This document shows, in pieces, positions 1,110-32,442 of a stretch of 32,442 nucleotides of DNA. Source of the DNA: Streptosporangiaceae bacterium (GTDB taxonomy: Bacteria > Actinomycetota > Actinomycetes > Streptosporangiales > Streptosporangiaceae); the NCBI GenBank assembly GCA_025935815.1, contig JAICUO010000009.1:1-32442 (forward strand), given 5' to 3'. Each line of letters begins with the position of its first letter. Position 1 is the first letter of the stretch. A program made the position numbers and the translations under genes. The notes beneath the pieces were generated by a model. It did not search any database, had not been told where the DNA came from, and saw only the letters and a program-made list of their open reading frames with translations.

Positions 1110-1117
1110 GGAGAATC

Positions 1118-14600: not shown

Positions 14601-14819
14601 GCGGCCCACCGTAGTGCGCCGCTGCCACCTGGTTAAAGAGCCGTCAGCCAGGCCGCCGCGCGCACTGGGCGCGCCCGTAAGCGCCCCGCCCGCGACTTGT
14701 CGCATGATCATTAGCCGACCGCCGCAGCCTGGCGCCTTCGTCCCGGAGAACCAACAGCGCACCCCTGATTCGTGGAGGAGGACGAATACCTGGGACAATA
14801 CAGGACCTATCGTCGGCGC

Positions 14820-16250
14820 ATGCCCCAACTGGACGAGATCGGCGGCTGGATCGCCAAGCGCCTGCCCGAGCTCATCACCGAGCACAAGGTCCCCGGAGCC
14901 GCGATCGGCGTGTACGCCGGCGGCCAGGTCATCGACTACGCCTTCGGCGTGCTCAGCCACGCCACCGGAGTCGAGGCCACCACCGACTCGGTGTTCCAGG
15001 TCGGCTCGATCACCAAGACCTGGACCGCGACGCTGGTCATGCAGCTCGTCGACGAGGGCCTGCTCGACATCGACAAGCCGCTGCGCGGCTACCTGCCGGA
15101 GTTCACGCTCGCCGACGAGGCGGCGGCGCAGGCGATCACGACCCGGCAGCTGCTGTCGCACCAGGCCGGGTTCGAAGGCGACATCTTCACCGACACCGGC
15201 AACAACGACGACTGCGTCGAGAAGTACGTCGCGACCCTGGCAACCGACCCGCAGCTGTTCCCGCCCGGCCAGATGTTCTCCTACAACAACGCCGGGTACT
15301 GCGTGCTGGGCCGGCTCGTCGAGGTGCTGCGCGGCAAGCCGTTCGACCAGGCGCTGCGCGAGCACCTGTTCGCCCCGCTGGGGCTGGCGCACGCGGCGAC
15401 CGACGCCGCGTCGGCGATCTTGTTCCGGGCCGCCGTCGGGCACCTGCCGGGCGACCCGGCCGACCCGGACGCGTACCCGGCCCCGGCGCCCGTCTGGTCG
15501 CTGGTGAAGTCCAACGCCCCGGCCGGCGCGGCGCTGGCGATGCGCCCCCGCGACCTGCTCGCCTTCGCGGTCATGCACCTGGCCGGCGGCGTCGCCGCCG
15601 ACGGGACCCGGGTGCTCAGCGAGGCCAGCGTCGCCGCCATGCGGGAAACGCAGGTCGACGTGCCTCCCCTGGGCCTGATGGGCACGCACTGGGGACTGGG
15701 CTGGGAGCTGTTCCACTGGCCCAGCGGCACGGTCTTCGGCCACGACGGCGGCACCATCGGCCAGAACGCGTTCCTGCGGATCGTGCCGGGCCACGACGTC
15801 GCCATCGCCTTGCTCACCAATGGCGGGAACCCGATCGCGGTCTACCGGGAGGTCTTCGACCACCTGCTGTCCGAGCTGACGGGCATCCACCTCAATGAGT
15901 TCCCCGCACCGCCGGAGCACCCGGAGCACGTTGACGCGGCCCGGTACGTCGGCACCTACGCGAACTCGGTCAGCCAGTCCACCGTCACCCAGGATGAGGA
16001 CGGCCGGATCTGGATGGAGGACAAGCCGCTGGGCGAGCTCGCCGAGCTCGTCGGCCAGTCCGAGAAGACCGAGCTCGTCCACCTCACCGGGGACACCCTG
16101 ATCCCGGTCGAGCCCAAGTACGGAATCCACATCCCGCAGGTCTTCACCGGCGATGACGGCAGCGGCCGCGCCCTGTTCATCCACAGCGGCCGGGCCATCC
16201 GGCGCGCCGGCTTATTCACCCAGCGGCTGATTGCCCAAGCGGAGGCATGA
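14820..16250 (+). CDS. Serine hydrolase, beta-lactamase/S12 (CubicO/D-aminopeptidase-like) family
   Basis: ATG 14820; SxxK (GSITKTWTATL), YxN (YNNAGYCVLG), HDGGTIGQNAFLRIVP. Confidence 0.92.
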   Translation: MPQLDEIGGWIAKRLPELITEHKVPGAAIGVYAGGQVIDYAFGVLSHATGVEATTDSVFQVGSITKTWTATLVMQLVDEGLLDIDKPLRGYLPEFTLADEAAAQAITTRQLLSHQAGFEGDIFTDTGNNDDCVEKYVATLATDPQLFPPGQMFSYNNAGYCVLGRLVEVLRGKPFDQALREHLFAPLGLAHAATDAASAILFRAAVGHLPGDPADPDAYPAPAPVWSLVKSNAPAGAALAMRPRDLLAFAVMHLAGGVAADGTRVLSEASVAAMRETQVDVPPLGLMGTHWGLGWELFHWPSGTVFGHDGGTIGQNAFLRIVPGHDVAIALLTNGGNPIAVYREVFDHLLSELTGIHLNEFPAPPEHPEHVDAARYVGTYANSVSQSTVTQDEDGRIWMEDKPLGELAELVGQSEKTELVHLTGDTLIPVEPKYGIHIPQVFTGDDGSGRALFIHSGRAIRRAGLFTQRLIAQAEA

Positions 16251-16251
16251 G

Positions 16252-17880
16252 TTGAGAAGAGTCCTGACCAGCGCGGCGGCGTGCACCGTGGCCGCGCTCG
16301 CCGTCGCCGCCTGCAGCGGCGGCGCCAGCACCACGAACCGAACCCCGGGCAGTACCTCGAGCAACGGAGCCTCCGGCGGCCAGCAGTACGCCAACGGCAA
16401 GACGCTGACGATGACGCTGCCGTCGGACCCGGGCACCCTGGACCCGGACCTCACGGCCCTGTCGGTGGCGATCCAGGCCGACTACTTCCTGTACGACCCG
16501 CTGGTCAACATCCAGCCGGACGGCACCCTGGTCTCCGGCCTGGCCACCTCCTGGACCGGCGACACGACCAGCGCCACGTTCACCGTGAAGAAGGGCGTCA
16601 CCTGCTCCGACGGCTCGCCGCTGACCGCGAGCGACGTGGCGGCGAACATCAACTTCATCGGCAACCCGAAGAACGCCTCCCCCAAGATCGGCATCTGGGT
16701 GCCGCCGACCGCGACCGCGACCGCCGATGACTCCACCGGCGTGGTAACGGTGAAGTCCCCCGTTCCCGACGCGTTCCTCGTCCGCAACGTCGGCCAGACG
16801 CAGATCGTCTGCGGCGCCGGGATGAAGGACCGCTCCACGCTGAAGAACGGCGCCAGCGGCACCGGCCTGTACTCGCTGACCTCGGCGGTGCCCGGCTCGT
16901 CGTACACGCTGACGCTGCGCAAGGACTACACGTGGGGCCCGGGCGGGGCCAGCGCCACCGCGCAGGGGACGCCCGCGCAGGTCATCCTCAAGGTGGTCAA
17001 CAACATGACCACCGCGGCGAACTTGCTCCAGTCCGGCCAGGCGAACATCGCCGAGGTCCTCGGCCCGGACACCGCCCGGCTGAAGGCGCTGAAGCTGAAT
17101 GAGCAGGACATCGTGGCGCCCTACGGCGAGCTGTGGTTCAACGAGAAGAAGGGCATGCCGGGCGCCGACCTCGCGGTGCGCACCGCGCTGACCCAGGCGC
17201 TCCAGCTTGACCAGCTCGCCCAGGTATTCTCCAGCGGCAGCGGCAGCCCGGCGACCGGCCTGGTCGCCCCGGGGCTGAGCCCGTGCAAGGGCAACACGGT
17301 CGGGTCCAGCCTGCCCGGCTATGACCTGACGGCGGCGAAGGCGGGCCTGGCCGCGGCGGGCTGGAAGGCCGGCCCGGACGGCGTCTTGGCCAAGGGCGGC
17401 ACCCAGCTCGCGATCGCCTTGTACTACCCGACCAGCATCGGCAGCGGGTCCGCGGCCGGCGCGCAGTTCGCGCAGAAGGCGTGGTCGGCGCTCGGCGTCC
17501 AGGTCACGCTCAAGCCCATCACCGACCCTGAGCTGTCCACCGACATCGTCGGCGGGCAGGCCGCATGGGGCGCCGGGTTCATCCCGCTCGGCTTGACGCT
17601 GCCCAGCCAGGTGATCCCGTTCGTGTCCGGCGCGACGCCGCCGAAGGGCACCAACTTCGCCTTCATCAGCAACGCCGCCTACTCAGCCGACGTCGCCAAG
17701 GCGTCCGCGACCGCCGGGACGGCCGGCTGCCCGAGCTGGAACGCCGCCGAGACCGCGCTGTTCAAGAACCTTGACCTGGTGCCGTTCGTCGACTCGACGG
17801 TGCCGTGGTTCGGGCGCGGGGCGACGTTCTCGCTCAGCCAGGGCAGCCTGCTCCCGACCACGGTCAAGATGCTGGGCTAG
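16252..17880 (+). CDS. ABC transporter substrate-binding lipoprotein, family 5 (peptide-type)
   Basis: TTG start; lipobox LAVAAC; LTMTLPSDPGTLDPDL...YDPLVNIQPDGTLVSGLATSWT...FTVKKGVTCSDGSPLTASDV. Confidence 0.92.
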   Translation: MRRVLTSAAACTVAALAVAACSGGASTTNRTPGSTSSNGASGGQQYANGKTLTMTLPSDPGTLDPDLTALSVAIQADYFLYDPLVNIQPDGTLVSGLATSWTGDTTSATFTVKKGVTCSDGSPLTASDVAANINFIGNPKNASPKIGIWVPPTATATADDSTGVVTVKSPVPDAFLVRNVGQTQIVCGAGMKDRSTLKNGASGTGLYSLTSAVPGSSYTLTLRKDYTWGPGGASATAQGTPAQVILKVVNNMTTAANLLQSGQANIAEVLGPDTARLKALKLNEQDIVAPYGELWFNEKKGMPGADLAVRTALTQALQLDQLAQVFSSGSGSPATGLVAPGLSPCKGNTVGSSLPGYDLTAAKAGLAAAGWKAGPDGVLAKGGTQLAIALYYPTSIGSGSAAGAQFAQKAWSALGVQVTLKPITDPELSTDIVGGQAAWGAGFIPLGLTLPSQVIPFVSGATPPKGTNFAFISNAAYSADVAKASATAGTAGCPSWNAAETALFKNLDLVPFVDSTVPWFGRGATFSLSQGSLLPTTVKMLG

Positions 17881-17919: not shown

Positions 17920-19008
17920 ATGGCTCTACCTCCCGGGGGCGCGACCCCCCGTACCCCCCGGGCCATGTCCCCGGCGGCGTTGGGTGAAACCGGCGGCGAT
18001 GACGGTGCGCCTGAGCGACCGGCCCCCAGCGGCGGGCTTGACTCGCTCATCGCGGCGGCGGCCAGCCCGTGGTCACGGTTCGCGGCCCGCCGCCTGGGAC
18101 AACTCCTCATCTCGGTCCTCGTCCTGGTCACCGCGTCCTTCCTCATGATCCACCTGGTGCCCGGGGACCCGGTCCGGGCGGCGCTGGGGCTCGACGCGAG
18201 CCAGGGCGTGGTCAACGCCCGCCGCGCCGCGCTCGGCCTGAACGACCCGCTGTGGCTGCAGTACGTCCACTACCTGCGCGACCTGCTGTCCGGCAAGATG
18301 GGCGACTCGATCACCTCCGGGCTGCCGGTCGCCCAGACGATCGGCCAGCGGCTGCCCGCCACGCTGGAGCTGGCCGGGTACGCGTTCGGGGTCGCCATCA
18401 TCGTCGCGATCCCGCTCGGCCTGACCATGGGCGTGCTGACCCGGGGCGGCCGGCGGCGCGGCGCGGAGCTGTCGTTCACCGCGGTCGCGGTGGTCCTCGG
18501 GGCGATCCCGGGCTTCCTGCTCGCGTTCGGCCTGATCGACGTGTTCAGCGTGCAGCTGGGGTGGACGCCGGTGGCGCTGCAGGGCGGCTTTTCCTCCTAC
18601 GCGCTGCCGGTCTTGTCGCTGGCGATCGGCCCTGCGGTGATCTTGGCCCGCATCCTGCGCCTGGAGGTCCTCGCCGCGCTGCAGGCCGACTACGTGCGCA
18701 CCGCCCGCGCCAAGCGGCTGCCAAGCGCGCGGCTGTACCTCGGGCACGTCCTGCCGAACGCGCTGACCGCGACGATCACGGTGTGCGGCCTGCTGCTGGC
18801 CGGGCTGGTCGCCGGGACGGTGCTGATCGAGAACGTCTTCGCGTGGCCGGGCCTCGGCCAGACCATGGTGGCCTCGATCATCAGCAAGGACTATCCCGTC
18901 GTGCAGGGGATCGTGCTCGTGTACGGGACCGGCGTGCTGCTGGTGAACCTCGCCGTCGACGTCACGCTGGCGCTACTGGACCCGCGCTCGACAATTCGGG
19001 AGGCATGA
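17920..19008 (+). CDS. ABC transporter permease (DppB/OppB type)
   Basis: RRLGQLLISVLVLVTASFLMIHLVPGDPVRAALG...VRTARAKRLPSARLYLGHVLPNALTATITVCGLLLAGLVAGTVLIENVFAWPGLGQ. Alternative in-frame ATG at 17965. Confidence 0.93.
   Translation: MALPPGGATPRTPRAMSPAALGETGGDDGAPERPAPSGGLDSLIAAAASPWSRFAARRLGQLLISVLVLVTASFLMIHLVPGDPVRAALGLDASQGVVNARRAALGLNDPLWLQYVHYLRDLLSGKMGDSITSGLPVAQTIGQRLPATLELAGYAFGVAIIVAIPLGLTMGVLTRGGRRRGAELSFTAVAVVLGAIPGFLLAFGLIDVFSVQLGWTPVALQGGFSSYALPVLSLAIGPAVILARILRLEVLAALQADYVRTARAKRLPSARLYLGHVLPNALTATITVCGLLLAGLVAGTVLIENVFAWPGLGQTMVASIISKDYPVVQGIVLVYGTGVLLVNLAVDVTLALLDPRSTIREA
17932..17962. repeat. Copy C of GC-rich interspersed repeat (short form)
   Basis: cccgggggcgcgaccccccgtaccccccggg; shares ctcccggggg and ccccccgtaccccccggg with copy B. 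Confidence 0.6.
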
Positions 19009-21176
19009 TGCGGACTGTCGCCCGTCGGGCGCGCCCAGCGCGATCGCGCTCTTCGATTGGGCGCGCACCGGGGGGCACGGGGGGATACTCGGTTCGTCCC
19101 CCCGGGCGACACTGGGGCAGGTCCCTCCGCACGCCCCTTGGCGCCTGCGCGGCGGCGCTGCTGGCGGTGATGGCGCTGATCGCCGTCCTCGCCCCGGTGC
19201 TGTGGACGGGGACGGCGAACGCCTTCGACACGTCCGCGATCTTGCGGGGCCCCTCGCCCGCGCACTGGGCGGGCACCAACAACCTCGGCCAGGATGTCTT
19301 CTTCCAGGTGCTGGTGGCGACCCGGCTGACGGCGGCGCTGGCGCTGGCCGCCACCGCGATCGGCGTGGGCACCGGGCTGCTGCTCGGCACGGCGCCGCTG
19401 GTGCTCGGCCGCCGCGCCGGCCGGGTCATCACCGCCGTGGTGAACATCGCGGTGGCGTTCCCGGCGCTGCTGCTGGCGCTGTTCTTCGCGGTGATCTTCG
19501 GCGTCGGGGCGCGCGGCGCGCTGCTGGCCATCGGCTTCGCGTCCGCCCCGACGTTCGCCCGGCTGACCAGGACGCTGTCGGCCTCCGTGGCGGGCCTGGA
19601 TTACATCGCCGCGGCCCGCATCGCGGGGGTAAGCCGCGTGCGGCTGCTGACCCGCCACGTCCTGCCGAACATCGGCGAGACCCTCATCGTCAACGCCACC
19701 ATCTCGGCGGGCGACGCGCTGCTGTCCTTCGCGGGCCTGTCGTTTCTCGGCCTGGGCGTCCAGGCGCCGTCGTATGACTGGGGCAAGCTGCTGTACGACG
19801 GCCTCAACGGCATCTACGTCCACCCGGTCGCCGCGCTGGCCCCCGGCATCGCCGTCATCCTGGCTGGCCTGGCCTTCAACTTGTTCGGCGAGGCGATGGC
19901 CCGCGCGCTCGGCGTCCCCGAGCTGGCCGGGGGCGCGATCGTGCGCGCCGCCCGGACCGGGCGCGGCGCCCGGCGCGCGCGGGCCGCGGCATCCCCCGGA
20001 TCAACGCCGTCAACGGCCCCTCCGTTCAGCCCAACGGAACCTGACGACTGCGTCCTTTCCGTCCGCGACCTGCGGGTCAGCTTCCCCGGCGGGGTGCACC
20101 CCGTGCGCGGCGTCAGCCTCACCCTGCGCCGGGGCGAGGCGGTCGGCGTCGTCGGCGAGTCCGGGTCGGGCAAGAGCCTGACCGCGCTGGCCATCGCCCG
20201 GCTGCTGGAGCCCCCCGCCGCCATCACCGCCGACCAGGTCCGGCTGCTCGGCCACGACCTGCTGCCGCTATCTCCCGGGGGGACGAACGGAGTATCCCCC
20301 CGTACCCCCCGGGGCGCGCCCGATGGAAAGGCAAGGGTATCGGGCACGCGGCCACGGGGGGTGGATCGTCATTTCCTCGGCACGTCGCTGGGGATGGTGT
20401 TCCAGGACCCGATGACCTCGTTCAACCCGGTCCGGCAGGTGGGCGGGCAACTCGCCGAGGTCGCCACCCAGCACCAGGGGATGACTCGTCGGCAGGCCGC
20501 CGCGCGGGCGGTGGACCGGCTGCGCGCGGTGCGCATCCCGGGTCCGGAGCGGCGCTACCGCCAGTTCCCCCATGAGCTGTCGGGCGGCATGCGGCAGCGG
20601 GCGATGATCGGCATGGCGGTCATGGGCAGCCCCGCGCTGGTGATCGCCGACGAGCCGACGACGGCGCTGGACGTGACCGTGCAGCGGCAGGTGCTGCGGC
20701 TGATCAAGTCCATCCAGGCCGCCGATGATCTCGCGCTGCTGTTCATCAGCCACGACATCACGGTCGTCGGGCAGGTCTGCGACCGGGTGCTGGTCATGTA
20801 CGCGGGACGGATCGTGGAGAGCCTGCCGTCGGCGGCGCTGGCGGCCAGCGCGCGGCACCCGTACACGCGGGCGCTGCTGGCCGCCGTCCCGTCGATGGAG
20901 ACCGACCGTGAGCAGCCGCTGGCGGTGGTGCCCGGCCGCCCGGCCGACCCCGCCGACGTGCGGCCCGGCTGCGCGTTCGCGCCCCGCTGCGCCTTCGCCG
21001 ACGACCAGTGCCGCGCCGCCGACCCGGTGCTGGCCACAGCGGGGGACGGTCATCAGGTCGCCTGCTGGCACCCCCAGGCCGCGCCGGCGCCGATCACCTT
21101 GCTTTCCGGCGCCGCTGCCGCGCCCGCCTCACCCACCACCCCGGCCACGCCGGCCGACGCGCGGGAGACGACGTGA
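19005..21176 (+). CDS. Fused ABC transporter permease (DppC type) and ATP-binding protein (DppD type)
   Basis: Single frame: permease SLRTPLGACAAALLAVMALIAVLAPVLWTG...ARIAGVSRVRLLTRHVLPNIGETLIV, then ATPase VGESGSGKSLTALAIARLL, MVFQDPMTSFNPV, LSGGMRQRAMIGMA, LVIADEPTTALDVT. ATGA overlap with the upstream permease. Confidence 0.93.
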   Translation: MMRTVARRARPARSRSSIGRAPGGTGGYSVRPPGRHWGRSLRTPLGACAAALLAVMALIAVLAPVLWTGTANAFDTSAILRGPSPAHWAGTNNLGQDVFFQVLVATRLTAALALAATAIGVGTGLLLGTAPLVLGRRAGRVITAVVNIAVAFPALLLALFFAVIFGVGARGALLAIGFASAPTFARLTRTLSASVAGLDYIAAARIAGVSRVRLLTRHVLPNIGETLIVNATISAGDALLSFAGLSFLGLGVQAPSYDWGKLLYDGLNGIYVHPVAALAPGIAVILAGLAFNLFGEAMARALGVPELAGGAIVRAARTGRGARRARAAASPGSTPSTAPPFSPTEPDDCVLSVRDLRVSFPGGVHPVRGVSLTLRRGEAVGVVGESGSGKSLTALAIARLLEPPAAITADQVRLLGHDLLPLSPGGTNGVSPRTPRGAPDGKARVSGTRPRGVDRHFLGTSLGMVFQDPMTSFNPVRQVGGQLAEVATQHQGMTRRQAAARAVDRLRAVRIPGPERRYRQFPHELSGGMRQRAMIGMAVMGSPALVIADEPTTALDVTVQRQVLRLIKSIQAADDLALLFISHDITVVGQVCDRVLVMYAGRIVESLPSAALAASARHPYTRALLAAVPSMETDREQPLAVVPGRPADPADVRPGCAFAPRCAFADDQCRAADPVLATAGDGHQVACWHPQAAPAPITLLSGAAAAPASPTTPATPADARETT
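19029..19106 (-). repeat. Copy A of GC-rich interspersed hairpin repeat, inside the permease-ATPase N-terminus
   Basis: Reverse complement of 19053-19106 matches 20274-20327 at 49/54 positions by eye; adjacent stem gcgcgccca (19029-19037) / tgggcgcgc (19058-19066). Confidence 0.85.
20271..20366 (+). repeat. Copy B of GC-rich interspersed hairpin repeat, inserted in-frame in the ATPase domain
   Basis: cccggggggacgaacggagtatccccccgtaccccccggggcgcgcccgatgga (20274-20327), followed by stem partner atcgggcacgc (20339-20349). Encodes SPGGTNGVSPRTPRGAPDGKARVSGTRPRG between DLLPL and LGMVFQDP. Confidence 0.85.
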
Positions 21177-21946
21177 GCGAACTGCGCTTTGAGGGCGCTA
21201 CCGTCCGGTTCGGCTCCCGCCGGCACGGCCACGTGGCGGTGGACGACGTTGACCTGGTGGTGCCCTCGGGCACGGTGGTCGGGCTGGTGGGCGAGTCCGG
21301 GTCGGGCAAGTCAACGCTGGCCCGCGCGGCCGTGGGACTGGCCCCGCTGACGGCCGGCCGGGTGCTGGCCGACGGCCGGCCGGTGCCCCGGCACGGGCGG
21401 CGCCCGGTACAGATGGTGTTCCAGGACCCGTTCGCGTCGCTGGATCCCCGGATGACCGTCGGGGAGTCGGTCGCCGAGGCCATCCCGCGGGGCTTCCCCG
21501 GCGGCCGGGCGGGCGGAGCATCCCGGCGGGCAGAAGCCAGCCGCCTGGCGGGGCTGGTCGGGCTCCCCGATGGGGTGGTCGACAGCTATCCCGCGCGGCT
21601 GTCGGGCGGGCAGCGGCAGCGGGTCGCGCTGGCGCGAGCCCTGGCCGGGCGGCCGCAGGTGATCATCGCCGATGAGATCACCTCCGCGCTGGACGTGTCG
21701 ACGCAGGGCGCGGTGCTCAACGTGGTCCGCGACCTGCAGCGGGAGCTGCGCCTGTCCATGCTGTTCATCTCGCACAACCTCGCCGTCGTGCGCTACGTCA
21801 GCGACGTGGTCGCGGTGATGCGGGCGGGGCAAATCGTGGAGTGCGGCCCGGCCGAGCGGGTGCTCGCCGCTCCTGGGCATGAATACACCCGTGAGCTGCT
21901 CGCCGCCGTGCCCCGGCCCGGCTCGGTACTGACAGCCGAGGACTGA
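21173..21946 (+). CDS. ABC transporter ATP-binding protein (DppF/OppF type)
   Basis: GTG 21173 (MSELRFEGATVRFGSRRHGHVAVDDVDL); VGESGSGKSTLARA, LSGGQRQRVALARAL, IIADEITSALDVS. 4-bp overlap with the upstream gene. Confidence 0.95.
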   Translation: MSELRFEGATVRFGSRRHGHVAVDDVDLVVPSGTVVGLVGESGSGKSTLARAAVGLAPLTAGRVLADGRPVPRHGRRPVQMVFQDPFASLDPRMTVGESVAEAIPRGFPGGRAGGASRRAEASRLAGLVGLPDGVVDSYPARLSGGQRQRVALARALAGRPQVIIADEITSALDVSTQGAVLNVVRDLQRELRLSMLFISHNLAVVRYVSDVVAVMRAGQIVECGPAERVLAAPGHEYTRELLAAVPRPGSVLTAED

Positions 21947-21969: not shown

Positions 21970-24900
21970 GTGACCCGACGCCAGCGCATCGCTGACCTGA
22001 CGACCTTCGCGCTGCCCGAGCAGCCGGCGCTGTCCCCCGACGGCCGCGCGGTCGTCTACGTGCTCGCGACGACCGATGAGGCGACCGGCGACACCGTGCG
22101 GTCCCTGTGGCGGGTCGCGGTGACCGCGGGCGCGGCGGGGGGCAGTGCCCGGCCGCTGACGCGCGGCCGGGCCGACGCCGCCCCCGCCTGGTCGCCGGAC
22201 GGGACGTCGGTCGCGTTCTTGCGCAGTGCCGCTGAGAACGCCGGCGACGGTCCGGCGCAGCTCTGGCTGCTGCCGATGGACGGTGGCGAGCCCGCGCCGC
22301 TGACGACGCTGCCGCTGGGCGCGGGCGCGCCGGCGTGGTCCCCGGACGGGACCATGATCGCGTTCGGCGCGCCGGCTGACGCCGAAGGCCTTGATCGCGG
22401 CGCGCGGGCCAAGGCCCCGGTGGTCGCCGACCGGCTGGACTACCAGGCCGACGGGGCCGGGCTGATCGGCGCGATCCGCACCCACCTGCACGTGCTGGAC
22501 GTGGCGTCCCGTGAGGTCCGCCAGGTCACCTCCGGCGACTGGCACGCCGGGTCGCCGGCCTGGTCTCCCGACTCCGCGCGGCTGGCCTTCAGCGCGGCGA
22601 CGGCACCGGACGCCGACCTGGATTACCGGGCGCCCGTGTACGTGATCGACGTCGACCGCCAGGACGCGCGGCCCGAGCTGGCGGCCCTGCCGGCCGGCAC
22701 CGGCGGCCCGCTCACCTGGACCGCCGACGGAACGGCGCTGCTCGTCGCCGGCATGACCGGTGCCCCCGTCGGGCACACCGGGCTGCTGCGCGTTCCCCTG
22801 ATGCCAGCCGGCACCTCGCCAGCCGGTGCCCCGGTGGCCAGCAGTGTCGCCACCAACATCGCCGCGGCCCTGGACCGCAACGTGATGCCAGGCGGACCCG
22901 GGTACCCGGGCGGGCCGCCGCAGCTGGGCGCCGACGGCGAGACAGTGCTGTTCTGCGTGCGGGACCGCGGGTGCACGCATCTTTACTCGGCGCCCGCCGA
23001 TGGCGCTGGCGTCCCCGGCCCGGTCATCGCGGGCCCGGGCCGGGTGGTATCCGGGCTGTCGGTGGCCGGCGGCGGGAACACCGCCGTGGTCGTGCTAGCC
23101 ACGCCGGCCAGCTACGGCGAGGTCGTCGCGGTCGACCTCGCGACGGGCACCGAGACCGTGCTCACCGACCATGGCGCTAGCCAGGCCGGCGTCACGCTGT
23201 TCGGGCGGCAGGAGCGGGAGTTCACGATCTCCGACGGGACCACCGTGCACGGCTGGCTGGTCCGCGACCCGGCCGCCAGCGAGCCGGGCCCGCTGCTGCT
23301 GGACATCCACGGCGGGCCGCACAACGCGTGGAACGGCGCGGCCGACCCAGTTCACCTGTACCACCAGGAGCTCGCGGCCCGCGGCTGGACCGTCTTGCTG
23401 CTGAACCCGCGGGCCAGCGACGGCTACGGCGAGGCGTTCTTCAATGGCGCAATCGGCCGGTGGGGCGACGTTGACGCGAAGGACCTCCTGGAGCCGGTCG
23501 ACGCGCTCGTCGCGGAGGGCATCGCCGACCCGGGCCGGCTGGCGGTGACCGGCTACAGCTACGGCGGCTACATGACCTGCTACCTGACCAGCCGGGATGA
23601 CCGGTTCGCGGCGGCGGTGCCCGGCGGCGTGGCCACCGACTTGACCAGCATGGCCGGCACCTCCGACCAAGGGCACGCGCTGGCCGCCCGGGAGCTGGGC
23701 GGCCAGTGGTGGGCGGCCGGCGACCGCGAGCGGTTCGCCGCGATGTCCCCGCTGACCCACGTGGACCAGGTGCGCACGCCGACGCTGATCCTGCACGGCG
23801 CCGACGACGCGACCTGCCCGGCCGGGCAGGCGCAGCAGTGGCACACGGCGCTGCGCGAGCGCGGCGTCCCCGCCCAGCTCGTGCTCTATCCGGGCGCGTC
23901 GCACCTGTTCATCTTGTCCGGCCCGGCCGCGCAGCGCGCCGACTGGAACCAGCGGGTCGTGGACTGGGTCGAGGAACACGCCGCGGGCACGCCGCGCCCG
24001 ATCGACGCCGCGCACTGGCGGCGGCGGCTGGCCGCCCTCGCCGAACGCCACAACGTCCCCGGGGCCGCGCTGGGCATCTTGCGCCTGCGGCCCGGACGCG
24101 AGGACGAGCTCGTCGAGGCCGCCTGCGGGCTGCTGAACGCCGACGCCGGAATTGAGGCGACCACCGACTCGGTGTGGCAGATCGGCTCGGTCTCCAAGGT
24201 GTGGACCGCGACGCTGGCCATGCAGCTCGTCGATGACGGGCTGCTGGACCTGGACTCGCCGGTCGCCGACTACCTGCCCGAGCTGGAGCTCGCCGACGCC
24301 GACGTCGCCAAGACGGTGACGATGCGGCACCTGCTGACGCACACCAGCGGCATCGACGGGGACGTGTTCACCGACACCGGGCGCGGTGATGAATGCCTGG
24401 AAAGGTACGTAGCGTTGCTGGCCGAGGTGAAGCAAAACCACCCGCTCGGCGCGACCTGGTCCTACTGCAACTCCGGGTTCTCGCTGGCTGGCCGGGTGAT
24501 CGAGAAGATCACCGGCGGCACCTGGGATGCTGCGCTGCGCCAGCGGATCTTCACCCCGCTAGGCCTGGCCCGCACGGTGACGCTGCCGGAGGAGGCTCTG
24601 CTGTTCCGCGCGGCGGTCGGGCACGTGGACGTGGCCGGGCAGCGGCGCGTCGCCCCGGTCTGGACGCTGCCGCGCTCGGTCGGCCCGGCCGGGCTGATCT
24701 GCTCTACCCCCGCCGACGTGCTCGCGTTCGCGCGGATGCACCTGACCGGCGGGAAGGCCGCCGACGGCACCCAGGTGCTCAGCGCGGCCGCCGCCCGGGC
24801 CATGACCGAGCACCAGGCCGACCTGCCCGACAAGTTCGTCCTGGGCGACTCGTGGGGCATCGGCTGGATCCGGTTCGGCTGGGGCGGGCGGCGGCTGGTC

Positions 24901-25389
24901 GGCCACGACGGCAACACCATCGGGCAGGCCGCGTTCCTGCGCGTCTTGCCGGACGCTGAGGTCGCCGGGGCGGGGCTGGCCGTCACGCTGCTGACCAACG
25001 GCGGCAACCCCCGTGACCTGTACCAGGACCTGTACAGCGAGATCGTCGCCGAGCTGGCCGGGGTCACGATGCCGGCCCCGATCGAGCCTCCGGCGCGGCC
25101 GGTCGAGTCCGACATCACGCCGCACCTGGGCACCTACGAGCGGGCGAGTGTCCGGATGGAGGTCGAGGCCGGCCCGGACGGGCCGGTGCTGCGCACCACG
25201 GTCCTGGGCCCGCTCGCGGAGCTCACTCCCGACCCGGTCTCGCAGTACCCGATGGTCGCGGTGGCGCCGGACCTGTTCGTGGTCCGCGAGCCCGAGGCGC
25301 AGACCTGGATCCCGGTCACCTTTTACTCGCTGGCCACCGGTGAGAAGTACGTCCACTTCGGCGCGCGCGCGACCCCGAAGGTGAGCTGA
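21970..25389 (+). CDS. Fusion: S9 family (acylaminoacyl/prolyl oligopeptidase-like) peptidase plus C-terminal S12 beta-lactamase-like serine hydrolase
   Basis: GTG start with AAGGAG upstream; WD40/TolB-like repeats (PAWSPDGTSVAF), S9 nucleophile VTGYSYGGYMT, HGADDATCP, GASHLF; then RHNVPGAALGI, SxxK GSVSKVWTATLAMQLVDDG, YxN YCNSGF, HDGNTIGQAAFLRVLP. No stop between domains. Confidence 0.93.
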   Translation: MTRRQRIADLTTFALPEQPALSPDGRAVVYVLATTDEATGDTVRSLWRVAVTAGAAGGSARPLTRGRADAAPAWSPDGTSVAFLRSAAENAGDGPAQLWLLPMDGGEPAPLTTLPLGAGAPAWSPDGTMIAFGAPADAEGLDRGARAKAPVVADRLDYQADGAGLIGAIRTHLHVLDVASREVRQVTSGDWHAGSPAWSPDSARLAFSAATAPDADLDYRAPVYVIDVDRQDARPELAALPAGTGGPLTWTADGTALLVAGMTGAPVGHTGLLRVPLMPAGTSPAGAPVASSVATNIAAALDRNVMPGGPGYPGGPPQLGADGETVLFCVRDRGCTHLYSAPADGAGVPGPVIAGPGRVVSGLSVAGGGNTAVVVLATPASYGEVVAVDLATGTETVLTDHGASQAGVTLFGRQEREFTISDGTTVHGWLVRDPAASEPGPLLLDIHGGPHNAWNGAADPVHLYHQELAARGWTVLLLNPRASDGYGEAFFNGAIGRWGDVDAKDLLEPVDALVAEGIADPGRLAVTGYSYGGYMTCYLTSRDDRFAAAVPGGVATDLTSMAGTSDQGHALAARELGGQWWAAGDRERFAAMSPLTHVDQVRTPTLILHGADDATCPAGQAQQWHTALRERGVPAQLVLYPGASHLFILSGPAAQRADWNQRVVDWVEEHAAGTPRPIDAAHWRRRLAALAERHNVPGAALGILRLRPGREDELVEAACGLLNADAGIEATTDSVWQIGSVSKVWTATLAMQLVDDGLLDLDSPVADYLPELELADADVAKTVTMRHLLTHTSGIDGDVFTDTGRGDECLERYVALLAEVKQNHPLGATWSYCNSGFSLAGRVIEKITGGTWDAALRQRIFTPLGLARTVTLPEEALLFRAAVGHVDVAGQRRVAPVWTLPRSVGPAGLICSTPADVLAFARMHLTGGKAADGTQVLSAAAARAMTEHQADLPDKFVLGDSWGIGWIRFGWGGRRLVGHDGNTIGQAAFLRVLPDAEVAGAGLAVTLLTNGGNPRDLYQDLYSEIVAELAGVTMPAPIEPPARPVESDITPHLGTYERASVRMEVEAGPDGPVLRTTVLGPLAELTPDPVSQYPMVAVAPDLFVVREPEAQTWIPVTFYSLATGEKYVHFGARATPKVS

Positions 25390-25392
25390 CAA

Positions 25393-26538
25393 ATGGACCT
25401 GACCAGCCTGCCCGCCGCCATGGCGGAGCGGCTGCCGCGGATCCTGGCCGACATCGAGGAGCTGGTGCGCTGCGAGTCGCCGTCGGCGGACCTGGCCGCG
25501 GTGGCCGCCAGCGCCGACGTGGTCGCCGGGGTCGGCGCGCGGCTGGTGGGATCGGCGCCGGAGCGGATCGTGATCGACGGGCGGACGCACTTGCGCTGGC
25601 GGCTCGGCGACGCCTCGCGGGACGAGGGATTGCCGCGGGTGCTGCTGCTCGCGCACCATGACACTGTGTGGCCAATCGGGTCGCTGGCAACCCATCCGTT
25701 TTCCGTCGATGACGGCGTGCTGCGCGGCCCCGGCTGCTTTGACATGAAGACCGGGCTGGTTCTCGCGCTGCACGCGGCGGCCCAGCTGCGCCCGTGCGGG
25801 GTGACCATCTTGGTGACCGGCGATGAGGAGGTCGGCTCGCGGACCTCCCGCGAGCTGATCGAGGCCGAGGCGGCCGGCTGCCGCGCGGCCCTGGTGCTGG
25901 AGGCGTCCGCCGACGGCGGCGCGGTCAAGACCGCCCGCAAGGGCACGTCGCTGTACCGGGTCCGGGCGCTTGGCCGTGCCGCGCACGCCGGCCTGGAGCC
26001 CGAGCGCGGCGTGAACGCGACCGTCGAGCTGGCCTGCCAGGTGCTGGCGGTGGCCGGCATCGCCGATGCCGGGCGCGGCACCACGGTGACCCCGACGGTG
26101 CTCGCGGCGGGCCGCACCTTCAACACGGTGCCCGACGACGGGGCGTTCGACGTGGACGTGCGCGTCTGGGACGACGCCGAGCAAGCCCGGGTGGACGCCG
26201 CGATGCGCGCGCTGGCCCCGGCGACCCCCGGCGCGCGGCTAGAGGTGACCGGCGGCCCGAACCGCCCGGCGCTGTCCCGGTCGTCCTCGGCGGCGCTGTT
26301 CGACCGCGCGTGCGCGCTGGCCGCCCGGCTGCGGCTGCCGCCGCTGGAGCAGGCCGCGGTCGGCGGGGCCTCCGACGGCAACTTCACCGCCGGGGTCGGC
26401 ACCCCCACCCTTGACGGCCTGGGCGCGGTGGGCGGCGGGGCGCATGCCGACCATGAGCATGTCCTGGTCGCGGAGCTGCCTGGGCGGGCGGCGCTGCTGG
26501 CCGCACTGATCCACGACCTGTTGAATGAGGCTTCATGA
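25393..26538 (+). CDS. M20 family metallopeptidase/deacylase
   Basis: LLLAHHDTVWPIG, GPGCFDMKTGLVLAL, VTGDEEVGS, GRAAHAGLEPERGVNA. Confidence 0.94.
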   Translation: MDLTSLPAAMAERLPRILADIEELVRCESPSADLAAVAASADVVAGVGARLVGSAPERIVIDGRTHLRWRLGDASRDEGLPRVLLLAHHDTVWPIGSLATHPFSVDDGVLRGPGCFDMKTGLVLALHAAAQLRPCGVTILVTGDEEVGSRTSRELIEAEAAGCRAALVLEASADGGAVKTARKGTSLYRVRALGRAAHAGLEPERGVNATVELACQVLAVAGIADAGRGTTVTPTVLAAGRTFNTVPDDGAFDVDVRVWDDAEQARVDAAMRALAPATPGARLEVTGGPNRPALSRSSSAALFDRACALAARLRLPPLEQAAVGGASDGNFTAGVGTPTLDGLGAVGGGAHADHEHVLVAELPGRAALLAALIHDLLNEAS

Positions 26539-27422
26539 CCCCGGATATCATCACGGACCTCTTTCCGGCGGAGGAAGCCGCCCGGCGAGCCGCCGACGCC
26601 GCGAGGGTGAGCATCCGCGAGCTTGACAGCATTGAGGACCTGGAGGCCGCCGTCGCCGTGTTCGACGAGATCTGGCACCCCGAGCCGGGAACCCAGCCGA
26701 TCAGCGCCGAGCTCATGAAGGCGCTGCGCAAGGCCGGCAACTACATCACCGGCGCCTACGACACCGACGGCGGGCAGCTCGTGGGGGCGTGCGTCGGGTT
26801 CTTCGGCCCGCCGTCGCACGCGTCGCTGCACAGTCACATCGCCGGCGTGTCCGCGGCCGGGCTGGGGCGCAGCGTCGGCTTCGCGCTGAAGGTGCACCAG
26901 CGGGCCTGGGCGCTGGAGCACGACGCCACCGAGATCGCCTGGACCTACGACCCGCTGATCCGCCGCAACGCCTACTTCAACCTGGTCAAGCTCGGCGCCC
27001 GGGCCGCCGAGTACCTGCCGAACTTCTACGGCGGCATGCAGGACCAGATCAACTCCGGCGGCGACACCGACCGGGTGCTGGTCAGCTGGGACCTGCGCGC
27101 CCCCCGCGTCGCGGCGGCGTGCGCGGGGAAGCCCAGCCCGGCCAGCGCGCAGGCGCTGATCGCCGCCGGGGCCCGCGTGGCGGTGACGGTCGCCGCCGAC
27201 GGGTACCCGGCGCTGTCTTCCGGGCGATCGGGATCGCCGGCCACTACGGTGCTGGTGGCCATCCCGCCCGACGTCGAGCGGCTGCGGGCCAGCGACCCCG
27301 GCGCCGCCGCCGCCTGGCGGTCCGCGGTCCGGGACACGCTGGGCGAGCTCATGGCCGCGGGCGGCCGGGTTACCGGCTTCGACCGGGCCGGATGGTACGT
27401 GATCGAAGGAGGCTCACGATGA
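26535..27422 (+). CDS. GNAT superfamily acyltransferase (COG3375-like)
   Basis: AWTYDPLIRRNAYFNLVKLGARAAEYLPNFYGGMQDQINSGGDTDRVLVSWDLR. 4-bp overlap with the M20 gene. Confidence 0.88.
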   Translation: MTPDIITDLFPAEEAARRAADAARVSIRELDSIEDLEAAVAVFDEIWHPEPGTQPISAELMKALRKAGNYITGAYDTDGGQLVGACVGFFGPPSHASLHSHIAGVSAAGLGRSVGFALKVHQRAWALEHDATEIAWTYDPLIRRNAYFNLVKLGARAAEYLPNFYGGMQDQINSGGDTDRVLVSWDLRAPRVAAACAGKPSPASAQALIAAGARVAVTVAADGYPALSSGRSGSPATTVLVAIPPDVERLRASDPGAAAAWRSAVRDTLGELMAAGGRVTGFDRAGWYVIEGGSR

Positions 27423-28540
27423 AGCTAGCCGGGGTGGAACTCCGCCGGATCCAGATGCCGCTGGTGGCGCCGTTCCGGACGTCGTTCGGCACCGAGACGG
27501 CCCGCGACATCCTGCTGCTGCGCGCGGTCGCCAGCGGAGGATCATCGGGGGAGGCCGAGGGCTGGGGCGAGTGCGTGGCGATGTCCGACCCGCTGTATTC
27601 CTCGGAGTACGTGGACGCCGCCGCCGACGTGCTCCGCCGTTTCCTGATCCCCAAGCTCGCCAGCGTCGCCGACCTCGACGGCGCGCGGGTCGGCGCCGCC
27701 CTGGAGCCGTTCAAGGGCCACTGGATGGCCAAGGCCGCCCTGGAGATGGCCGTCTTGGACGCCGAGTTGCGCCTGGCGGGCCGCTCCTGGGCCCGGGAGC
27801 TGGGCGCGACCCGCGACCGCGTCCCCTGCGGGGTGTCGGTCGGCATCATGAACTCGATCGGCGAGCTTCTCGACGCGGTCGCCGGCTACCTGGAGGCCGG
27901 CTACGTCCGGATCAAGCTCAAGATCGAGCCCGGCTGGGACGTCGAGCCGGTCCGGGCGGTGCGCGACCGGTTCGGCGGCGACATCCTGCTGCAGGTCGAC
28001 GCGAACACCGCCTACACCCTGGCCGACGCGCGGCACCTGGCCAAGCTGGATGAGTTCGGCCTGCTGCTGATGGAGCAGCCGCTGCCCGAGGAGGACGTGC
28101 TCGGGCACGCGGAGCTGGCAAAGGTGGTGCGCACGCCGGTCTGCCTGGATGAGTCGATCACCTCGGCGCGGACCGCCGCCGCGGCGATCACGCTCGGCGC
28201 CTGCCAGGTCATCAACATCAAGCCGGGCCGGGTCGGCGGCTACCTGGAGGCCCGCCGGATCCACGACGTGGCCGCCGCGCACGGGATAGCGGTCTGGTGC
28301 GGCGGCATGCTGGAGACCGGCCTGGGGCGGGCCGCGAACGTGGCGCTCGCCGCGCTACCCGGCTTCACGCTGCCCGGCGACACCTCGGCCTCCGACCGCT
28401 ACTACCGGTCCGACATCACGGCTCCGTTCCAGCTCCGCGACGGCCACCTGGACGTGCCCACCGGGCCCGGGCTCGGGCTGGCGCCGCTGCCCGGCCGGCT
28501 AGCTGAGGTCACGACGTCAGTCGAGTGGGTGCCAGCGTAA
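27419..28540 (+). CDS. Enolase superfamily, o-succinylbenzoate synthase / N-succinyl(acyl)amino acid racemase-like
   Basis: VPLVAPFRTSFGTE-like N-terminus; KxK (VRIKLKIEPGW), metal ligands QVDANTAYT, LMEQPL, VCLDESI and catalytic INIKPGRVGG. ATGA overlap with the GNAT gene. Confidence 0.92.
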   Translation: MKLAGVELRRIQMPLVAPFRTSFGTETARDILLLRAVASGGSSGEAEGWGECVAMSDPLYSSEYVDAAADVLRRFLIPKLASVADLDGARVGAALEPFKGHWMAKAALEMAVLDAELRLAGRSWARELGATRDRVPCGVSVGIMNSIGELLDAVAGYLEAGYVRIKLKIEPGWDVEPVRAVRDRFGGDILLQVDANTAYTLADARHLAKLDEFGLLLMEQPLPEEDVLGHAELAKVVRTPVCLDESITSARTAAAAITLGACQVINIKPGRVGGYLEARRIHDVAAAHGIAVWCGGMLETGLGRAANVALAALPGFTLPGDTSASDRYYRSDITAPFQLRDGHLDVPTGPGLGLAPLPGRLAEVTTSVEWVPA

Positions 28541-28567: not shown

Positions 28568-30298
28568 GTGAGCATGCGCCCGCAAGCTAGCTTGCGCCGG
28601 GTCCTGGATGACCTGGGCGTCACGCTGCTGGAGCTTGTCGCCGGCGACCCGCCCGCGGCCCAGATCGGCGGCGTGGTGATCCATGACCCGGTGGATGAGC
28701 CGGCGCTGCCGCGCCACGCGCTCGTCCTCGGCGTCGGGGTGCGCGAGCCGGCCGAGGTCGCCGCGCTGCTGCGGACCCTGGGCCGCCACGAGGCCACGGG
28801 CCTGGTGCTGCGGCTGCCCGTCGCGGCTCCCCAGCCGGTGCTCGACGCGGTCGCCGCCTCGGGCGTGCCGCTGCTCGGCCTGACCCGCGGCGCGTCCTGG
28901 ACGCAGCTCGCCGCGCTGCTGCGGTCCCTGCTGGCCGAGGGCGATGTCGGCGACGACGGCCCCGAGACGCTCGGCGGCCTGCCCTCCGGTGACCTGTTCG
29001 CGGTGGCCAACGCGGTCGCGGCCCTGATGGACGCGCCGGTCACCATCGAGGACAGGTCCTCGCGGGTGCTGGCCTTCTCCGGCAGGCAGGACGAGGCGGA
29101 CCGCTCCCGGGTGGAGACGATCCTGGGCCGCCAGGTCCCGGAGCGGTACTCCCGCATGCTCACCGAGCGCGGCGTCTTCCGCGACCTGTACCGCAGCGAC
29201 CAGCCGGTCTACATCGAGCCGCCCGGCGGGCTGGCCGACTTTATCGTCCCCCGCGCCGCCGTCGCGGTCCGGGCCGGGGATGAGGTTCTCGGCTCGATCT
29301 GGGCCGCGGTCCGCGAGCCGCTTACCCCGGACCGGGAGCAGGCGATGCGGGACGCGGCGCGCCTGGTCGCCCTGCACATGCTGCGGATCCGGGCCGGCGC
29401 CGACGTTGGCCGCCGGCTGCGCACCGACCTGGTCAGCACCGCCCTGGAAGGCGGGACCGGCGCGGGCGAGGCGGTCAGCCGGCTGGGGCTGGCTGACCAG
29501 CCCGTCGTGGTGCTCGCCCTGGCGGTCCCCGGGATCGCGCACCCTGATCTCATCGAGCACCGCACCACCGGGACCGTCGCCACCGGGACCAGCATCGGCG
29601 GGACCAGCACCACCGGGACCAGCACCGCCGCGACCAGCGCCGCGCTGGCCACCGAGCGGCAGCGCCTCGGCGACGGGCTGGCGATGCACTTGAACGCGAT
29701 CCACCCGCGGTGCGCCATCGCGCTCATCGGCGACGTCACCTACGGCCTGCTGCCGGTCACCGCGGGGACCGACGGGGAGCAGCGCGCGGCCCGGATCGCC
29801 GCGGACTTCCTGGACCGGATCGGCGGCCGCGGCCAGGCGGTGATCGCGATCGGCCACGTGGCCAGCGACGCGGCCGGGCTGCCGGCGGCGCGCGCGCACG
29901 CCGACCGGGTCCTGCGGGTGCTGCTGGGCGGAGCATCCGGGCTGGGCGGAGCATCATCCGGCGACCGCCGGGTCGCCTGCCTGTCCGACGTCCACGCGGA
30001 GGCGCTGCTGATGGAGCTGCGCGACCTGGCCGCCGCCCACGGTGACCGGCCAACCGGCGCGGTCGCGCGGCTGCTGCGCTACGACGCCGAGCACCGCACG
30101 AACCTAGTCGACACGCTGCGCGCGTGGCTGGACGCCTTCGGCGACATCCCGGTGGCCGCGGCGGCCATGTTCGTGCACGTGAACACCTTCCGCTATCGCC
30201 TTCGGCGGCTGGCCGAGGTCAGCGGCATCGACCTCACCGACCCCGACCAGCGCTTCGCCGCCATGCTGCAGCTACGGGTCATGTCCCGCCGCGACTGA
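28568..30298 (+). CDS. PucR family transcriptional regulator
   Basis: N-terminal PucR-like domain; C-terminal HTH AWLDAFGDIPVAAAAMFVHVNTFRYRLRRLAEVSGIDLTDPDQRFAAMLQLRV. Confidence 0.92.
   Translation: MSMRPQASLRRVLDDLGVTLLELVAGDPPAAQIGGVVIHDPVDEPALPRHALVLGVGVREPAEVAALLRTLGRHEATGLVLRLPVAAPQPVLDAVAASGVPLLGLTRGASWTQLAALLRSLLAEGDVGDDGPETLGGLPSGDLFAVANAVAALMDAPVTIEDRSSRVLAFSGRQDEADRSRVETILGRQVPERYSRMLTERGVFRDLYRSDQPVYIEPPGGLADFIVPRAAVAVRAGDEVLGSIWAAVREPLTPDREQAMRDAARLVALHMLRIRAGADVGRRLRTDLVSTALEGGTGAGEAVSRLGLADQPVVVLALAVPGIAHPDLIEHRTTGTVATGTSIGGTSTTGTSTAATSAALATERQRLGDGLAMHLNAIHPRCAIALIGDVTYGLLPVTAGTDGEQRAARIAADFLDRIGGRGQAVIAIGHVASDAAGLPAARAHADRVLRVLLGGASGLGGASSGDRRVACLSDVHAEALLMELRDLAAAHGDRPTGAVARLLRYDAEHRTNLVDTLRAWLDAFGDIPVAAAAMFVHVNTFRYRLRRLAEVSGIDLTDPDQRFAAMLQLRVMSRRD
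29566..29640 (+). repeat. Five 15-bp tandem repeats within the PucR-type gene
   Basis: caccgggaccgtcgc / caccgggaccagcat / cggcgggaccagcac / caccgggaccagcac / cgccgcgaccagcgc. Confidence 0.9.
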
Positions 30299-30465: not shown

Positions 30466-30499
30466 AATTCGATGTATATCATCGAATTTATCAATTCGA
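30466..30499. promoter_or_regulatory. AT-rich overlapping inverted repeats upstream of the DUF222 gene (operator/promoter candidate)
   Basis: aattcgatg-tatat-catcgaatt (30466-30488) overlapping tcgaatt-tatc-aattcga (30482-30499) in an otherwise GC-rich region. Confidence 0.5.
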
Positions 30500-30540
30500 A
30501 TGAGTGTGAGTGCAGGCGAGCTGGGCGGAGGTGCGCGAAG

Positions 30541-31384
30541 GTGGACTTCATGGCCGAGGGGCCGGGCGACGCTGACGCACGCCTCGCTGACGGCGATCGA
30601 CGCGACGACCGGCTGGCCGGCTTTGCGCAGCACCGGTGCGGGGACAGCGCCCGGCCGAACGCCTGGCACGTGATGGTCCTCAGCGACCTGACCGGCGCGG
30701 ACGACCGGTGCCCGGACGCGACCGATGACGAGGCCCTGGGGCTGATGGGCCGGTGGAAGGCGGCGGAGTCCTGGGCGGCGGCGCGCAAGCTGGGCGTGGC
30801 GAGGGAGATGATCCGCCGCCGCGCGGTCCCCGAGAAGGGCATGGCGACGGCGGGCCTGCCCTGGGAGTGGGAGCCAGACCTTCAGCACGAGGTGGCCGCC
30901 CAGCTGCGCACCTCGCTGGTCGCCGCGGGCAAGCTGCTGCACCTGGCCTGGTCGCTGGAGGCCCGGCTCCCCCGCATCGGCGGCGCCCTGTCCGACGGCC
31001 GGCTCGATCCCGGGCAGGCCAAGATGATCGTCACCGAGACCGACGCCCTGCCCGACGACAAGGCCACCGCCGCCCAGGAGCTCATCATGGCCGGCCTCGA
31101 TGACTGCAACACCTGGGCCGGCCTGCTGCGGCTGGTCCAGCGGGCGGTGTGCACGGTGGACCCCGACGGGGCCCGGCGGCGCCGTGAGCAGGCCGAACGG
31201 GAGACGGCGCGCGTCCGCCTGTGGCGCGAGTCATCCGGCGCGTGCGCGCTGGCCGGCCATGCGCTGCCCGCCGATGAGGCCCTCGCCGCGTGGGGGCACG
31301 TGGAGGCCCGCGCCCAGCACTACCGCGCCCGGGGCATCAGGGAGTACATCGACCTGCTGCGGGTGATGGCCTACCTCGACCTGC
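30541..31384 (+). CDS. DUF222 (13E12 repeat-type) protein, 5' exon, interrupted by a putative group II intron
   Basis: GTG 30541 with ggagg upstream; LPRIGGALSDGRLDPGQAKMIVTETDALPDDKATAAQELIMAGLDDCNTWAGLLRLVQRAVCTVDPDGARRRREQAERETARVRLWRESSGACALAGHALPADEALAAWGHVEARA...VMAYLDL. Runs into GTGCG and non-homologous sequence; no HNH domain reached. Confidence 0.75.
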
Positions 31385-32442
31385 GTGCGCCACGAGGCGC
31401 ACGGCCGTATTGCCCGTAAAGCGGGCAGGGAATAGAGGAGGTGTCCCTGGGCCTGATGGCTTAGCCGGGACCCGCAATGGAACCGGCGAAAATAGCATGT
31501 CAGTAAACCGGCAGTGGCGCCGAGGCATTCGGGCTACGGGCCGGGAGGCCCGTGTGATATGGCGAAAGCCGAATTGCCTGAATCCCAGTCTCCAGAAGGC
31601 GTATCAGGTCGCCCGCCGGAAACAAAATGCCTGATTACCGGTGCCGGTCCCTGCGGCAAGGCTAGGAGGTACTTGCTGCAATCCTCTGGGACGCAGGAGC
31701 GATGTCCAGCGAGGGCATTTAAGGAGACGGACGGGACGCCTAAGTCACGCTAGATACGTACGGCTGTGTGAACGTGGGATCGACCCCGGCGCGCGAGCGG
31801 CCCGGGGCGACGGAGTGCCCGTAGTAGTCGCGGGGGTAGCGTCCCGCCAATTCTGGAGACCGGGAAAGCCGGACCACAGGGCGAAGGGGCACAGGTGGCT
31901 GGACCCAGCAGGAGCACGAGGTATGCGTAATGCAGAGCGCCGAAGTGGTAGTGAGGGTCCTCCGCGAGCGTGGCGGGAAGGGACTGCCATGTGATGAGTT
32001 GTACCGGCAGATGTTCAACAGGGACCTGTACCTGGCGGCCTACGGGAACATTTACTCTAACAAAGGGGCGATGACCCCCGGGGCCGGCGGGGGAACCGCG
32101 GACGGCATGTCAGAGGCGGAAGTTAACCAGATCGTCGGGCTTATGCGGTCCGAGCGCTACCGGTTTTCCCCGGCGCGCCGGGTCTACATACCGAAGAAAA
32201 ACGGGAAGCTCCGTCCCCTCGGCATGCCGGAATGGCGGGATAAGATTGTCGGCGAGGTAGTTCGCATGCTACTTGAAGCGTACTACGAGCCGCAGTTCTC
32301 GCCACGTTCGCACGGGTTACGGAAAGGGCGCGGGTGCCACACTGCGCTACGGGAAGTCCGTGATACCTGGACCGGGACCGCGTGGTTTATCGAGGGTGAC
32401 ATATCTGACTGCTTCGGGAGTCTTGACCATGAGATCATGCTC
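31385..32442 (+). mobile_element. Group II intron, 3' truncated by the window end
   Basis: 5' GTGCG start (31385) forming gtgcgcc-acga-ggcgcac stem; about 545 nt with no convincing CDS, then an intron-type reverse transcriptase. Confidence 0.8.
31930..32442 (+). CDS. Group II intron reverse transcriptase/maturase, N-terminal part (open at window end, absent from ORF track)
   Basis: Manual translation from ATG 31930: MQSAEVVVRVLRERGGKGLPCDELYRQMFNRDLYLAAYGNIYSNKGAMTPGAGGGTADGMSEAEVNQIVGLMRSERYRFSPARRVYIPKKNGKLRPLGMPEWRDKIVGEVVRMLLEAYYEPQFSPRSHGLRKGRGCHTALREVRDTWTGTAWFIEGDISDCFGSLDHEIML. Confidence 0.93.
   Translation, partial: MQSAEVVVRVLRERGGKGLPCDELYRQMFNRDLYLAAYGNIYSNKGAMTPGAGGGTADGMSEAEVNQIVGLMRSERYRFSPARRVYIPKKNGKLRPLGMPEWRDKIVGEVVRMLLEAYYEPQFSPRSHGLRKGRGCHTALREVRDTWTGTAWFIEGDISDCFGSLDHEIML

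Follow-up and report, generated by a model that had tools for sequence, protein, structure and literature searches.

Genes at the locus

The window analysed here is the whole stretch of 32,442 nucleotides from a Streptosporangiaceae bacterium (contig JAICUO010000009.1). It carries an operon on the forward strand (Table 1), one gene of which encodes a single polypeptide joining an S9 peptidase to an S12 hydrolase, hereafter the S9::S12 fusion. Upstream lie a stand-alone S12 hydrolase and the components of a Dpp-type peptide importer. The stand-alone enzyme (start at 14772 or 14820) lacks a signal peptide and shares 46% identity with the S12 half of the fusion, as found by searching the genome against itself. 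The substrate-binding lipoprotein probably begins at about 16261, and the DppC permease and the DppD ATPase are encoded in a single frame in relatives also. The genes are tightly packed: the GTG of DppF overlaps the DppD stop, 3 bases separate the stop of the fusion from the start of the M20 gene, and ATGA overlaps link M20 to GNAT and GNAT to the racemase.

Other features of the window were also recorded. An inverted repeat of 58 bases, 90% complementary, has both arms within the DppC–DppD gene. Upstream of the operon and divergent from it is a coding stretch that resembles MmgE/PrpD by eye. On the 3′ side lie a DUF222 protein and a reverse-transcriptase-like ORF, similar by eye to group II intron proteins, which runs off the window.

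Table 1. Features of the window and regions of the fusion protein; positions are nucleotides of the window unless marked as residues (aa)
Feature	Position	Strand	Basis
MmgE/PrpD-like coding stretch	12351..14500	-	by eye
Stand-alone S12 serine hydrolase	14772..16250	+	PF00144, 235 bits; SITK, YNN and HDG motifs
Peptide/dipeptide ABC substrate-binding lipoprotein (family 5)	16231..17880	+	SBP_bac_5, 163 bits; lipobox AVAAC
DppB/OppB-type permease	17920..19008	+	BPD_transp_1; Opp2B-like below cut-off
DppC permease fused to DppD ATPase, one ORF	19005..21176	+	translation
Inverted repeat, two arms	19052..19109 / 20271..20328		
DppF-type ATPase	21173..21946	+	ABC_tran, 104 bits; OppF-like
S9::S12 fusion, 1139 aa	21970..25389	+	translation, Pfam, motifs, structure model, fold search
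 beta-propeller	aa 1 to ~410		
 S9 catalytic domain	aa ~415 to 672		
 linker	aa 667 to 683		
 S12 domain	aa 684 to 1016		
 C-terminal strand-rich domain	aa ~1040 to 1139		
M20 metallopeptidase/deacylase, carboxypeptidase G2-like	25393..26538	+	PF01546/PF07687; alignment to 1cg2
GNAT acyltransferase	26535..27422	+	AlphaFold model, GNAT matches in PDB
N-succinylamino acid racemase (NSAR/NAAAR)	27419..28540	+	589 bits to Amycolatopsis NAAAR 1sja
PucR-family regulator	28568..30298	+	HTH_30, 77 bits; syntenic in relatives
DUF222 protein	30472..31419		
Reverse-transcriptase-like ORF	from 31930, runs off window (32442)		by eye

Architecture of the fusion protein

The fusion gene starts with GTG, is preceded by AAGGAG and contains zero internal stops. 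Pfam detects PD40 repeats (best at residues 61–88), Peptidase_S9 (PF00326, residues 467–672, 142 bits) and Beta-lactamase (PF00144, 207 bits, over the whole S12 domain), the last two far over their cut-offs. Membership of both families is clear. The S9 half combines a propeller and a Peptidase_S9 domain with the triad Ser530 (the nucleophile, in GYSYGG at 528), Asp613 and His645; the S12 half has the PF00144 fold with the SxxK, YxN and HxG/KTG signatures, present as SVSK740 (the nucleophile motif), YCN832 and HDG979. The N-terminus shows no hydrophobic stretch, its maximal hydropathy over 15 residues being 0.87 versus 2.09 in the neighbouring substrate-binding lipoprotein. The protein is accordingly predicted from its sequence to be cytosolic, and both active sites are intact. 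A first-pass annotation of this DNA had described two serine-hydrolase folds with separate nucleophiles in one uninterrupted ORF and no obvious signal peptide, and both observations are borne out. Its proposal of a cytoplasmic bifunctional peptidase for imported peptides fits the intact sites, the missing signal peptide and the Dpp-type importer immediately upstream; bifunctionality is what we infer from these features. The structure model is moderate (pLDDT 72.7, pTM 0.58), too weak to say how the active sites face each other or whether substrates are channelled.

Conservation and origin of the fusion

Uninterrupted fused homologues were found at 39 loci in six named families of Actinomycetes, a count taken from the retrieved loci of a class-wide search made with the S12 domain alone. 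Across these homologues the S9 nucleophile is kept in 38 of the 38 sequences that cover it (one has a gap), the aspartate in 38/39 and the histidine in 39/39, while every homologue (39/39) retains the full set of six S12 motif residues. The full fusion is present, among the 60 nearest genomes, in three that belong to the same genus and one that belongs to another family; in several relatives of the same family S9 and S12 are encoded by adjacent separate genes that share a few bases. Scanning GTDB genomes added ten named isolates with a single uninterrupted fused ORF: Prauserella muralis, Kibdelosporangium persicum, Streptomyces sp. MnatMP-M17, S. spinosisporus, Amycolatopsis kentuckyensis, Actinomadura geliboluensis, A. 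barringtoniae, Leucobacter sp. G161, Nocardioides sp. Root1257 and Nonomuraea zeae. An assembly or frameshift artefact is rejected, since the ORF is uninterrupted in isolates and metagenome-assembled genomes (MAGs) of several families. The combination, which had been considered unusual at first reading, is thus a conserved architecture and not a one-off: no frameshift or stop lies between the domains, and within one branch of the Actinomycetes the arrangement is fairly frequent. A literature search, with most subscription papers outside its reach, found no description of the S9::S12 fusion or its function.

In a maximum-likelihood tree of 86 S12 domains, all 39 fused domains fall inside one well-supported set of 42 rows that has three unfused members, and the stand-alone S12 of the window belongs to a separate clade, S12a. 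The simplest account of the 42-row set is one gain of the fusion followed by up to three losses; in other words, the fusion most simply arose once. The tree and the GTDB scan together also reject a chance fusion in one MAG.

The order of the operon is conserved across several Actinomycete families. The same block, with minor shuffling, is present in P. muralis, K. persicum, both Actinomadura species, S. spinosisporus, the Nocardioides isolate and 23 more fused loci. In an even sample of 346 genomes of the class, NSAR occurs in 96 and the S12 family in 44; 41 have both, where 12 are expected (Fisher p 5e-23, shared ancestry ignored). The two genes usually lie within 10 kb of each other, and within 20 kb in 36 genomes. 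All 25 fused genomes of this sample have the importer, M20 and GNAT, and 24 have NSAR; in the remaining one the contig ends after GNAT.

Comparison of the two halves with known enzymes

In a fold search the S9 half matches the S9 carboxypeptidases 8wt1 (G. stearothermophilus) and 5yzn (D. radiodurans), with which it shares the propeller and alpha/beta-hydrolase fold, the catalytic triad and ~30% identity across its whole length; unlike them, the window protein continues into a C-terminal S12 domain. Judged from sequence, the half resembles the carboxypeptidase-like branch of S9.

For the S12 half, an informative comparison is with Pab87, a MEROPS S12 (CubicO) peptidase that acts specifically on peptides with D-residues and whose gene has a dipeptide ABC transporter and a D-aminoacylase encoded nearby (PMC2651629). 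The two have in common the SxxK, YxN and HxG motifs, nearby dipeptide-transport genes and a strand-rich domain after the catalytic domain, whereas fusion to an S9 peptidase is particular to the window protein. In the structure model, the last ~100 strand-rich residues may be the counterpart of the C-terminal lipocalin-like domain of Pab87. Membership of CubicO itself is rejected, since the YAEAF/L, FFYLN and C-terminal ERY motifs (PMC2651629) are absent: at the second of these positions the fusion reads TWSYCN, and it ends in GARATPKVS. By analogy, motifs and context are suggestive of D-specificity in the S12 half.

The racemase pathway and its Bacillales counterparts

The racemase of the window is orthologous to the crystallised N-acylamino acid racemase of Amycolatopsis; the A. 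kentuckyensis copy, from a cluster of the same type, is even closer to that enzyme (667 bits). Along with orthology, the catalytic Lys, Asp and Glu residues are in place, namely the Lys–Lys pair (K168 and K268) and three metal carboxylates (D194, E219 and D244). A dedicated MenC (PRK02901, over cut-off) is encoded elsewhere in the genome (G000:C592), as in 10 of 11 genomes tested. NSAR is therefore not needed for menaquinone, and a role as the OSBS of that route is unlikely.

Pfam gives no match for the GNAT of the window, but its model (pLDDT 88.7) matches GNAT structures in the PDB. Searched with a profile made from it, 13 of 20 Bacillales loci have a homologue immediately next to NSAR (E 1e-44 to 1e-59); two Bacillota genomes, neither known to have NSAR, gave no match. 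A GNAT of an NSAR-linked family thus adjoins NSAR in the window, and it is predicted from sequence to be a D-amino acid N-succinyltransferase. The M20 protein, which keeps the metal-ligand motifs when aligned to carboxypeptidase G2, is likewise a predicted L-desuccinylase; both enzymes could act on acetyl instead of succinyl groups.

The pathway of Geobacillus, a genus of the order Bacillales, reportedly comprises a D-amino acid succinyltransferase, NSAR and an L-desuccinylase. The window shares with it the NSAR, orthologous to the Amycolatopsis enzyme, the adjacent M20 deacylase and a neighbouring GNAT from the family that accompanies NSAR in Bacillales; it differs in the addition of an upstream peptide importer and of S9::S12 and S12 peptidases, which would be a plausible source of D-amino acids for the pathway. 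In the account of Sakai et al. 2006 given in PMC8762209, the G. kaustophilus pathway, in which GNAT acts on D-amino acids with succinyl-CoA alongside NSAR, converts D- to L-amino acids irreversibly.

NSAR loci of Bacillales carry S12, GNAT, M20, Dpp and an M55 D-aminopeptidase, and constitute independent support from another phylum. One (L236:3780-17325) has the order M81-like, NSAR, substrate-binding protein, Dpp, regulator, S12, GNAT, M20 and M55 (D-aminopeptidase in Pfam), and another (L233) the order GNAT, regulator, M19 dipeptidase, NSAR, S12, substrate-binding protein and Dpp.

Proposed function and alternatives

The reading favoured here, to which we give a probability of about 0.7, is that of a cytosolic bifunctional peptidase in a catabolic operon for D-amino acid-containing peptides, feeding the NSAR pathway. 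The Dpp-type importer would take in short peptides of mixed chirality; the S9 half would remove or open at L-residues, while the S12 half and its stand-alone paralogue would cut beside D-residues. GNAT would N-succinylate the freed D-amino acids, NSAR would invert the products and the M20 desuccinylase would then release L-amino acids, a series that makes the conversion from D to L effectively one-way. The NSAR pathway of the operon implies that the S12 half handles D-residues. By placing complementary stereospecificities on one chain, the fusion would bring a peptide stalled at one residue next to the enzyme able to remove it. The first-pass annotation had spoken of sequential cleavage of imported peptides; imported peptides agree with the present reading, and sequential cleavage overlooks the NSAR pathway as the point of the operon.

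The pathway part of this reading is well supported by genomic context. The complete picture, in which the fusion is a mixed-chirality-peptide machine with L/D handover, the role of NSAR is D-peptide catabolism and one lineage has an internal start for S12, is put forward more tentatively, at somewhat less than even odds. NSAR is in wide industrial use as a racemase, and what is known of its natural role comes mainly from the one Geobacillus pathway. If the proposal is true, its natural feedstock would be peptides with D-residues and the releasing enzyme would be named. A single chain whose two serine sites have opposite stereo-preferences would make a useful D-peptide-degrading tool, and the protein would clearly exemplify a fusion retained for the handover of substrate.

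The strongest competitor, though considerably less probable, holds that the S12 half alone matters to the pathway, S9 being a general L-peptidase joined to it by loss of a stop codon and coupled only through co-expression. The few-base overlap of the unfused pairs is in its favour, as stop loss would fuse them, and S9 has decayed or disappeared in several relatives. Beside an intact S12, the S9 gene is decayed in G012 (L049), with the catalytic YSYGG replaced by YRYGS, and in G011 (L051), with an internal loss; in G313 and G023 S9 is absent and S12 retained. Of the two partners S12 is therefore the more constant, and S9 is dispensable in these four otherwise similar loci. Against this account, several families have retained the fusion, both of its active sites being invariant (residue counts above), and unrelated fusions of an alpha/beta-hydrolase to S12 exist in three Bacillales genomes. 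The first, after NSAR and GNAT (L207:8091-10385), is a protein of 765 residues with a different alpha/beta-hydrolase (Abhydrolase_1, S33-like); its homologues (L234:7427-9739 and L235:7406-9724) lie beside M81 and Dpp importer genes. An alpha/beta-hydrolase has thus been joined to S12 at least twice in a setting of peptide import or NSAR.

It is improbable that the S12 half is an esterase, an amidase or a beta-lactamase-like detoxifier, with N-acyl- or ester-capped peptides or antibiotics as targets of the fusion. Its nearest solved relatives do include the esterase IS11 and the PBP-type cyclase Ulm16, and its best PDB sequence match is the thermophilic IS11 itself (7spn, 192 bits), so that sequence does not settle whether it is a D-peptidase. 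Family VIII esterases also have SxxK and YxN. IS11 differs, however, in being a single S12-type protein with no S9 partner, and we know of no peptide-import or NSAR context for it. The importer, NSAR, GNAT and M20 fit neither ester nor beta-lactam chemistry, the Bacillales counterparts adjoin an M55 D-aminopeptidase and an M19 dipeptidase, and the fusion, unlike resistance beta-lactamases, has no signal peptide. Slightly weaker still is a role in defence or competition, in which the operon would import and destroy peptide antibiotics with D-residues, amino acids being a by-product: many hosts belong to antibiotic-producing groups of Actinomycetes and some known D-stereospecific peptidases break down non-ribosomal peptides, for example one that cleaves gramicidin (PMC9541196), but cytosolic enzymes that are coupled to an importer and accompanied by a complete D-to-L salvage pathway look nutritional, and the conserved block is without resistance or efflux genes.

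Linker and possible internal start

In family f21 the linker, otherwise variable, carries in 18/18 fused genes (L148–L164 and L043) an AAGGAG ~6–7 bases before an in-frame ATG, replaced by GTG in G058. The AAGGAG–ATG pair is found neither in the gene of the window nor in fused genes outside f21. In f21 it is a possible internal start, by its sequence, that would yield S12 alone, and such a signal fits an origin of the fusion from two coupled genes through loss of a stop codon.
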